A program made the position numbers and the translations under genes. The notes below the pieces were generated by a model. That model saw only the letters and a list, made by a program, of their open reading frames with translations, had not been told where the DNA came from and did no database searches. DNA of 64,000 nt from Chloroflexota bacterium (GTDB taxonomy: Bacteria > Chloroflexota > Limnocylindria > Limnocylindrales > CSP1-4): assembly GCA_030447745.1 (NCBI GenBank), contig JAUJOH010000008.1, forward strand, positions 66,876 to 130,875, written 5' to 3'. Numbering within the stretch: position 1 is the stretch's first letter; every line of letters starts with the position of its first letter. Below are positions 1 to 53,510 of this stretch, piece by piece.

Positions 1-11
1 GAGTTCAGGAC

Positions 12-362
12 ATGGCTGACATCAAAAACATCACGGAAGCGACCTTCGAGGACGATGTCCTTCGCAGCGACCGGCCGGTGATCGTCGACTTCTGGGCAGC
101 GTGGTGCGTTGACTGCCACCGTGTGGCGCCGGAGCTCGAACGGCTCGCCGATAAGTACGCAGGTGTGGTTGACGTGGCCAAGCTCGACGTGGATGCGAAC
201 CCGGCGCTGGCCGCCGCCTTCGGGATCATGCGTCTCCCGACCATCGCTCTCTTCCGGCCCGGTCAGGGGCCCGTCGGCGTCACGGGGTTCCGACGGGCCG
301 AGCAGCTCGAGCAAGGCCTCGGACTCGTCGCGCTCGCTCCCATGAGCGCCGGAGCAGGCTAG
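12..362 (+). CDS. Thioredoxin-family protein with WCVDC active site
   Basis: A 116-residue thioredoxin-fold protein, the length of a classical cytoplasmic thioredoxin, expected to exchange or reduce protein disulfides. Visible family features are the buried Asp26, Trp28, the redox pair Cys32 and Cys35, and a cis-proline segment RLPTIALF near residue 75. The active site reads WCVDC instead of the usual WCGPC. Replacing Gly-Pro with Val-Asp should shift redox potential or partner choice (inference). AGGAC sits just upstream of the ATG. A copper-type ATPase follows on the same strand, so a link to metal or oxidative stress is possible but not shown. No signal peptide is visible, so it acts in the cytoplasm. 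Confidence 0.9.
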
Positions 363-48821: not shown

Positions 48822-49120
48822 GCACGACGCACAGCTCCGCGGAGGCCGAAACCCCCGCCGTCGACGGGCTGGTCTTCCGCCGCTTTCGCGACCCTTCCGA
48901 CTACCACGCCATGGCCGCCGTCTCGCAGGCGGCCAACCTCCACGACGGCGAGGACTGGATTCCCGACGCCGCGAACATGCGGGTCGAGTTCGAGAACACC
49001 GCCGACCTCGAGCCGACCGAGGACATCCTGCTCGCCGAGGTCGACGGGCGCGTCGTCGCCTGGGGCAACGTCATGCGCCAGGTCCGCGACGGCCTCGCCG
49101 TCTACGCGCCCAGCCCGAGC
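48818..49120 (+). pseudogene. N-terminal fragment of a GNAT gene (copy B)
   Basis: ATG 48818 overlaps the copy A stop as ATGA. About 95 residues follow (VDGLVFRRFRDPSDYHAM, HDGEDWIPDAANMRVEFENT, VMRQVRDGLAVY) that match the N-terminus of copy D at high identity. Then the sense is lost: the acetyl-CoA loop and whole second domain are absent, and the DNA joins copy C out of frame. It is the damaged remainder of a type-2 gene in a duplicated pair. Confidence 0.7.
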
Positions 49121-52542: not shown

Positions 52543-52738
52543 GCGGTTCGTTTCATCGACCAACGGCCGTGGTACCGGAAGCGGCGCCGTTCCGGCCGCG
52601 GCGGTTGGTCCCGGCGACCCGAGCGTCGCGGCTCTGCCCGCGCCGCTCGAATCGTCTCAACGCTGCGGCGTCGCGGGTAGTTGAACCGGGCACCATTCCG
52701 GCGACCACGCGGGTTAGTAGATGAAACAGACGGCAGCG
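52543..52738. repeat. ~196-bp repeat element with inverted ends, copy 1
   Basis: It starts GCGGTTCGTTTCATCGACC and ends ATGAAACAGACGGC. The ends are imperfect inverted repeats of ~38 bp: the left end reversed and the right end share TTCCGG, ACCACG and GATGAAAC in register. A second copy of the same length lies at 53314-53510, in the same orientation, with conserved inner blocks such as CTCTGCCC and CATTCCGGCGACCACG. This is MITE-like. No transposase is nearby. Together with flanking sequence it fills the gap between coxG and the next gene. Confidence 0.7.
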
Positions 52739-52835
52739 GGCTGGGCGGCGCGTCAGTGATCGCGGTGTCGTACGCAGCTCGAAGCCACCGGTTCGATGCC
52801 GCCACACGGTGTGCCTGCCCCGCGTCGTTCGCCTG

Positions 52836-53297
52836 ATGGAACGCCCGTCGCCGATGCTTGCCCGGACCGTGCTTGCGGTGCCCGTGCTCACGCTCGGGCT
52901 CGGCGCGGCGGGGTGGTTCGTCATCGGCGGACCGACGGCGTTCGGTGGCCCGATGCCGGCGCTTCGTGAGGCGTGGCTGCCGATCTACCGCGTCCAGTCC
53001 GTCCTCGCGGCGGCGGTCACGTTCGTGTTCGTTCGGCTGCTCGAGCGTGTCGACCGCCGCCGGCTGATGCTCCTCGTACTCGCCGCCTGGCTGGGCGAAC
53101 TCACCGTGCTGCTCGTCGGTGGGAGGGTAATCGCCAACGAGCTCGTTCCCGAGGTCGCAGGGCTCTTCTGGCTGATCGCGACCGGCGGGCCGATCCAGCC
53201 GATCGCCGCCGTCGATCGGCGGGCTGCTCCGGCGCGAGGCGTCGCGGCGGCCGCCCGCGCGATAGCCCGGCAGCCGCCAACGGTCACGGCGCGGTAG
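52836..53297 (+). CDS. Hypothetical four-helix membrane protein
   Basis: A 153-residue membrane protein with about four hydrophobic segments (VLAVPVLTLGLGAAGWFVIGG, YRVQSVLAAAVTFVFVRLLE, MLLVLAAWLGELTVLLVGG, and VAGLFWLIATGGPI). The layout is like small DUF4345-type proteins but no firm family match is claimed. ATG 52836 is chosen; an upstream ATG adds only a few residues. It is bracketed by two copies of a ~196-bp repeat, so it may have been carried or framed by that element. Confidence 0.6.
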   Translation: MERPSPMLARTVLAVPVLTLGLGAAGWFVIGGPTAFGGPMPALREAWLPIYRVQSVLAAAVTFVFVRLLERVDRRRLMLLVLAAWLGELTVLLVGGRVIANELVPEVAGLFWLIATGGPIQPIAAVDRRAAPARGVAAAARAIARQPPTVTAR

Positions 53298-53313
53298 GCA
53301 GCCAGCTCCGGAG

Positions 53314-53510
53314 GCGGTTCGTTTCGTCGACCAATGACCGTGGTACGGGAAGCGCCGCCGCAGACACCGGCCCCGTAGACCCCGGCGGCACGAGTGTGGC
53401 GACTCTGCCCTCGCCGCGCCAGTCGTTTCTGTCTGGCCGCGTGATGGGTGGTTGAAACGGACGCCATTCCGGCGACCACGGGGGATGGTGGGTGAAACAG
53501 ACGGCGGCGG
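53314..53510. repeat. ~196-bp repeat element with inverted ends, copy 2
   Basis: Same orientation and length as copy 1. Left end GCGGTTCGTTTCGTCGACC, right end GTGAAACAGACGGCGG. Its ends also pair imperfectly with each other. On the minus strand both copies read in the same frame with similar peptides (PRGRRNG followed by RFN, then AARAE), because the inner sequence is conserved. That is unlikely to be a real gene, but it shows the copies share ancestry. Confidence 0.7.

Follow-up and report, generated by a model that had tools for sequence, protein, structure and literature searches.

What are the two short, similar stretches of DNA that bracket a small gene in a contig of a Chloroflexota bacterium, and how might they have come to be there? 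The window analysed here (the whole stretch of DNA, 64,000 nucleotides) belongs to a Chloroflexota metagenome-assembled genome (MAG) related to Limnocylindrales (hereafter G000; 2.43 Mb, 26 contigs, 77% complete). A first-pass annotation had described two copies of an element of about 196 bp in the same orientation and with inverted ends, with no transposase in sight. Alignment bears out this description: the two copies, here called A and B, are 76% identical over 197 nt, gap-free and in direct orientation, and in both of them the end motif GTTTCATCGACCAA reappears, inverted, at the right end. Position-by-position pairing of the ends gives imperfect arms of ~31 + 6 bp (~37 bp), and both copies contain a second, internal inverted module (Table 1). 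It also holds that no transposase is found beside the copies examined.

Table 1. Coordinates of elements A and B with their parts, of nuclease gene matches at elements in G000, and of paired solo copies in G013.
Feature	Sequence	Coordinates	Strand	Remarks
Element A, solo copy of dispersed palindromic element	window	52543..52739	+	76% identity to B; boundaries 1..192-197
A left arm (coding-tail arm)	window	52543..52580	+	in frame RFVSSTNGRG; resembles HTH + PD-(D/E)XK C-terminal tail
A terminal module GTTTCATCGACCAACGGCCGTGGT	window	52550..52573	+	
A internal inverted module GTCTCAAC...GTTGAACC	window	52654..52687	+	from sequence and alignment
A right arm (non-coding)	window	52696..52734	+	complement of A left arm
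ORF of 162 aa between A and B	window	52809..53297	+	probably small membrane protein; orphan
Element B, second solo copy	window	53314..53510	+	orientation as A
B left arm	window	53314..53351	+	in frame RFVSSTNDRG
B internal inverted module GTTTCTGT...GGTTGAAAC	window	53425..53458	+	from sequence and alignment
B right arm	window	53467..53505	+	
Nuclease gene match at element	G000 C26	48375-49058		overlaps element at 49035
Nuclease gene match at element	G000 C18	55708-56127		exactly between elements E and J
Nuclease gene remnant, 42 residues	G000 C25	8334-8459		precedes element copy
Paired solo copy	G013 C8	75240-75409		
Paired solo copy	G013 C9	92572-92774		
Paired solo copy	G013 C19	226083-226249		

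The further proposal that A and B frame the intervening gene as a composite unit fares less well. The identity of A to B (76.4%) is matched by that of A to two other copies, C (75.9%) and D (75.4%), which rules out a recent composite transposon and indicates that A and B behave as old, independent members of their family, of the same age as any other pair. The gene itself probably encodes a small membrane protein, which matches no family in Pfam, NCBIfam or PADLOC and is without homologues across 60 related genomes; it lies between A and B, and its membership of the element is unsupported. In G001, the sole genome available from the same genus, the contig syntenic to the A/B region ends in the neighbouring gene, before A is reached.

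The suggestion of a MITE-like or chromosomal repeat family can be examined across the whole genome, where it is supported by numerous dispersed copies with defined ends. G000 contains two further full-length matches plus several partial ones. A pattern built from the element ends (up to three mismatches allowed) has 32 matches, against 2 for a reversed control, which places the family well beyond chance, and most of these matches form convergent pairs 150-190 bp apart. Counted by such patterns rather than by a full profile, the A/B subfamily comprises at least 12 elements and a sister subfamily about 18 copies. The modules of the latter (TTGTCANNTACCANCCCCNGTGGT, partly at 40-50 bp spacing) were recovered 23 and 42 times with two patterns, against 0 for the control in each case, and a module matrix gave few matches in shuffled sequence, 7 in 156,664 bases at the lower of its thresholds. 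Solo copies in both subfamilies are intergenic, and the orientation of neighbouring genes is mixed. A, B, C and D can be aligned over element positions 1 to 192-197, where homology stops sharply; sister copies can be aligned from about 1-4 to 210-213.

Some copies are nearly identical (M and N, 96%; those on C4 and C22, 99%; those at C26:49 kb, C26:83 kb and on C25, 85-95%), indicating that spread has at least sometimes been recent. These near-identical copies also share about 7 to 58 nt of additional left flank, which is unexpected under precise transposition and so counts against the mobilisation that we propose below. Inspection by eye of the flanks of A-D and of the near-identical pairs revealed no consistent target-site duplication. 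M and N lie in inverted orientation ~3.6 kb apart (G000:C23:357972-361948, L107). The copy at G000:C26:83040-83260 (L165) abuts, on the left, sequence resembling the 3' end of a tRNA gene, at which ARAGORN calls no tRNA.

Closer inspection of the sister subfamily reveals a link to a gene. The sister copy at G000:C26:49035 overlaps the 3' end of an open reading frame (ORF) with an XRE-type helix-turn-helix (HTH) domain, and a search with this protein identifies six places in G000, three of them at elements (Table 1). The link extends to A and B: the tail peptides that can be read from their left arms resemble MFVSASNGRG in the nuclease gene on C18 (the reading is RFVSSTNGRGTGSG in A, RFVSSTNDRGTGSA in B and MFVSASNGRGSRSGTG in the C18 gene). 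At nuclease genes the element is found at the 3' end: the variable C-terminal tail is encoded by its left arm, and the right arm follows ~190 bp downstream.

In genome G004, a nuclease gene (C92) is likewise bracketed by two elements. A direct element-gene-element order surrounds the nuclease genes between J and E in G000, at G004:C92 and at loci L272 and L285, and it is seen near other genes as well. One such stretch (G000:C7:1516-2745, L146) consists of a full element, sequence like that of an IS transposase tail, an ORF of cytidine deaminase type and a right-half element, so that direct copies bracket the gene; in another (G000:C21:43009-44425, L147) a left-half element is followed by a P-loop kinase-like ORF on the opposite strand and then by a full element oriented as the first. 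This recurrent order, in the window and elsewhere, is what would be expected if the elements were integron-like cassette sites and A-ORF-B a cassette array formed by site-specific recombination between direct repeats. We regard this as scarcely credible: the best G000 match to the integron integrase IntI (TIGR02249) reaches 84 of the 265 bits of the curated cut-off, the attC core boxes RYYYAAC and GTTRRRY are absent by eye from the arms (which read GTTTCATCGACCAAC...GTTAGTAGATGAAAC and similar), and the solo copies are dispersed rather than arrayed head to tail. For lack of an integrase above cut-off and of arrays we reject an integron, and the mixed orientation of neighbouring genes speaks against a cassette reading of the solo copies.

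What can be said of the linked protein? Sequence libraries recognise only its HTH, and there is no Pfam match to Transposase_31 or PDDEXK_2. An AlphaFold (AF2) model (m722d3ddc6ec9; pLDDT 89; C-terminal tail poorly ordered) has strands and helices in the order alpha-beta-beta-beta-alpha-beta, and a Foldseek search of the PDB with it returned XRE antitoxins together with a weaker match, of the nuclease domain, to R2 retrotransposon proteins that possess a restriction-like endonuclease (E 7e-4). For the N-terminal domain there are matches among XRE antitoxins and restriction-modification (R-M) controller proteins. The residues H84, E105, D118, E133 and K135 occur without exception in 69/69 sequences, and the last four are of catalytic type; this invariance indicates that the active site is intact. 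On the modelled fold and these residues, the protein is an XRE-HTH fused to a predicted PD-(D/E)XK nuclease.

One nuclease gene of G000 has a syntenic ortholog in G001, as expected for a resident chromosomal gene, and no member of the family was matched in 72,556 plasmids and 50,697 phages. On the G000/G001 synteny, together with this absence from plasmids and phages, we reject the HTH-nuclease gene as a travelling transposon; it has apparently been inherited vertically, as seen at one syntenic locus only. The two genomes differ in detail at this locus. Upstream of the nuclease gene, G000:C18:53900-58000 (L055) carries element J and a NUDIX-like ORF, where G001:C45 (L206) has only ~207 nt, and the gene itself reads as a frameshifted pseudogene in G000 and is open in G001.

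Is the palindrome a general feature of such genes? In a first pass over ~50 genes, inverted repeats between the tail codons and sequence about 200 nt downstream were frequent. A second, separate set, which included some of the same genes, comprised 80 loci, all titled Chloroflexota or Chloroflexi (several of them Candidatus Limnocylindrales), and provided 68 testable nuclease genes, from Chloroflexota only, for which inverted repeats were scored as z against dinucleotide shuffles. A 3' inverted repeat was present at z > 3 in 34/68 genes and at z > 5 in 24/68, against 5/204 and 0/204 mid-gene controls (Fisher p about 3e-19), and against 1/93 and 0/93 for the 3' ends of other ORFs. In the strong cases the left arm lies entirely within the ORF (27/27), and the median element length is 189 bp (interquartile range 175-210, n = 27), a length like that of A and B. 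From genus to genus the arms have different sequences. Where related genes are unlike in the left arm, the opposite base has often changed too (both paired in 287 changes, one broken in 306); these counts are biased in favour of pairing, since complementarity was the basis on which the arms had been aligned. At about one fifth of the loci a further copy of the element lies nearby, at several of them directly upstream of the gene and in the same orientation. The remaining half of the nuclease genes (34/68) gave no 3' palindrome signal by the z > 3 test, which counts against the partnership that we propose below, and these sometimes contain recognisable modules, for instance L274 and L282. The palindrome is also spread across the gene tree, without restriction to a single clade (22 changes, against 24.3 when shuffled), so it is either an ancestral feature that has often decayed or one that has been regained often. 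The association between palindrome and nuclease gene is well supported overall.

Solo copies away from the nuclease gene have been found in three genera. In G013, from another genus, the 3' palindrome of the nuclease gene recurs as paired solo copies (Table 1), with additional single matches at C2 and C17, and G001 and G004 also contain paired solo copies of the module type. The G013 palindrome, used as a query in seven other genera, gave background matches only; each genus thus has repeat families of its own, which follow the nuclease gene of the same genome. This pattern bears directly on whether the elements are ordinary MITEs whose conventional DDE transposon is missing from the MAG or was left unassembled, with the 3' ends of nuclease genes as a preferred landing site. 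Like bacterial MITEs, the elements are short (~190-210 bp), non-coding and dispersed outside genes, with terminal inverted repeats, defined ends and a few near-identical copies, and a genome just 77% complete could lack the transposon. On the other side, no cognate DDE transposase was seen beside the copies examined, and no target-site duplication was recognised by eye. In many genera the arm occupies a fixed position within the nuclease ORF and the element has a constant length, with sequences that differ, whereas the parasite of one transposase would retain its own end sequence across genera. We therefore consider a MITE origin improbable.

Does the symmetry of the arms operate in DNA or in RNA? 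A structured RNA derived from the gene's 3' end, either guide-like (cf. the omega-RNA of TnpB) or acting on stability, with solo copies as its trans-encoded versions, would fit the 3' position overlapping the coding end, and copy A does fold better than its shuffles (z -3.0). Copy B does not (z -0.8), and the element matches no Rfam family. A sense RNA stem should favour G.U pairs, yet G.T and A.C mismatches in the arms are about equally frequent (73:88 in genes, 99:90 in solo copies), with no G-U bias. PD-(D/E)XK nucleases, moreover, are not known to be RNA-guided. The absence of a wobble excess, of an Rfam match and of better-than-shuffled folding in B argue against a structured RNA, which we hold to be very improbable. 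On the same three grounds, the arm symmetry looks like a feature of the DNA, such as would serve protein binding.

How, then, might the elements have spread? The explanation we favour, with moderate confidence, is that A and B are non-autonomous members of a palindromic family of ~190 bp that stands in a REPIN/RAYT-like partnership with the XRE-HTH + PD-(D/E)XK nuclease, which would recognise the palindromes and probably mobilises them. Under such a scheme an HTH dimer would bind the palindromic modules as DNA, the predicted nuclease would cut or nick at the element, and repair or replication would copy it elsewhere, so that further solo copies arise at a low rate. We infer that the nuclease mobilises the element, and this is the weakest link in the chain. 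A broader version of the proposal, which we advance more tentatively and would not rate as probable, is that this is a bacterial repeat-and-enzyme system of a new class, in which a chromosomal XRE-HTH + PD-(D/E)XK nuclease mobilises palindromes in trans and the recognition element consists of the last codons of its own gene. If the recognition element does lie within these codons, then the protein tail and the end of the mobile DNA would have to co-evolve, diverging between genera.

The best rival that remains to this account of mobilisation is that the elements are no more than sites to which the HTH-nuclease binds, operator-like or defence-like, that are not actively mobile and have spread only through gene duplication, decay and recombination, with solo copies as remnants of lost genes. 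Several observations are in keeping with it: the likeness of the N-terminal domain to XRE antitoxins and R-M controller proteins, the palindromic, operator-like modules, arm symmetry that carries no RNA wobble signature, the 42-residue gene remnant on one element copy, and the frameshifted pseudogene on C18. Three others are hard to reconcile with it. First, divergent solo copies share their start and stop positions, whereas gene decay should leave ragged left ends. Second, solo copies are far more numerous than genes. Third, operators normally lie upstream of a gene, not in its last codons. On balance we think binding without mobilisation unlikely.

Several bacterial palindromic repeat families have no known mobiliser, and CGTC-type REPs are reported explicitly to be without one (PMC3733652). 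Tying such repeats in a fixed way to an HTH + PD-(D/E)XK nuclease, in many genera of a single bacterial lineage, would bring a second type of enzyme, besides the HUH transposases, to intragenomic repeat populations. It also predicts the protein that should be purified and the DNA with which to challenge it. Where a DNA recognition element overlaps coding sequence, the protein tail offers a case in which constraint at the DNA level can be tested.

How does this compare with known systems? In the open-access literature we found nothing relevant on a nuclease-linked REP system, on Limnocylindria repeats or on PD-(D/E)XK nucleases associated with MITEs, and the points of comparison come from several separate systems. 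The Rpn proteins (YhgA-like, Transposase_31) are chromosomal, multicopy PD-(D/E)XK nucleases with a variable C-terminal end (PMC5350276, PMC10327210). The nuclease described here shares these properties, but it differs in matching neither Transposase_31 nor PDDEXK_2 and in that it has an XRE HTH at its N-terminus and is linked to a DNA palindrome. In TIRtrons, the genes of TIR-associated tyrosine transposases have inverted repeats on their flanks; these also form moderate repeat families, and the gene's 3' end is overlapped by some of them (PMC3733652). Gene-associated inverted repeats that overlap a 3' end and are also dispersed are thus common to both, although the enzyme fold is another one and, in our case, both arms of the palindrome are at the 3' end of the gene.

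CGTC-tagged REPs, for which a dedicated transposase is reported to be lacking (PMC3733652), resemble the elements in their small palindromic modules with a short unpaired foot. With regard to a GTAG or CGTC tag at the foot, the modules give a mixed picture: in the consensus (TTGTCANNTACCA...) the foot is TTGTCA or GTTTCA, and some individual modules have TCGTCA. The modules differ from CGTC REPs in forming long, asymmetric, nuclease-linked units.

The closest parallel in organisation is with REP/REPIN elements and their RAYTs (Y1/HUH). Membership of that system proper is ruled out by the lack of a Y1 gene: since no match to the RAYT family (PF01797) was found in G000 (77% complete) at E <= 0.001, with five control genomes positive, the element is not a member of a REPIN/RAYT system. 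The likeness is nevertheless considerable. Both consist of dispersed, extragenic, inverted pairs of palindromic modules, and REPIN/RAYT repeat families are matched to a chromosomal enzyme gene that is apparently inherited vertically rather than mobile (PMC3116915, PMC8049555, PMC3733652); the families described here likewise match a chromosomal, apparently vertically inherited enzyme gene. They are unlike REPINs in size and number, being ~190-210 bp long with 3-5 modules and a copy number in the tens, and in that the left arm lies inside the ORF of an enzyme that combines an HTH with a predicted PD-(D/E)XK nuclease. The match between the left end and the last codons of the nuclease gene family points to a partnership of the REPIN/RAYT kind, but with an unrelated type of enzyme.
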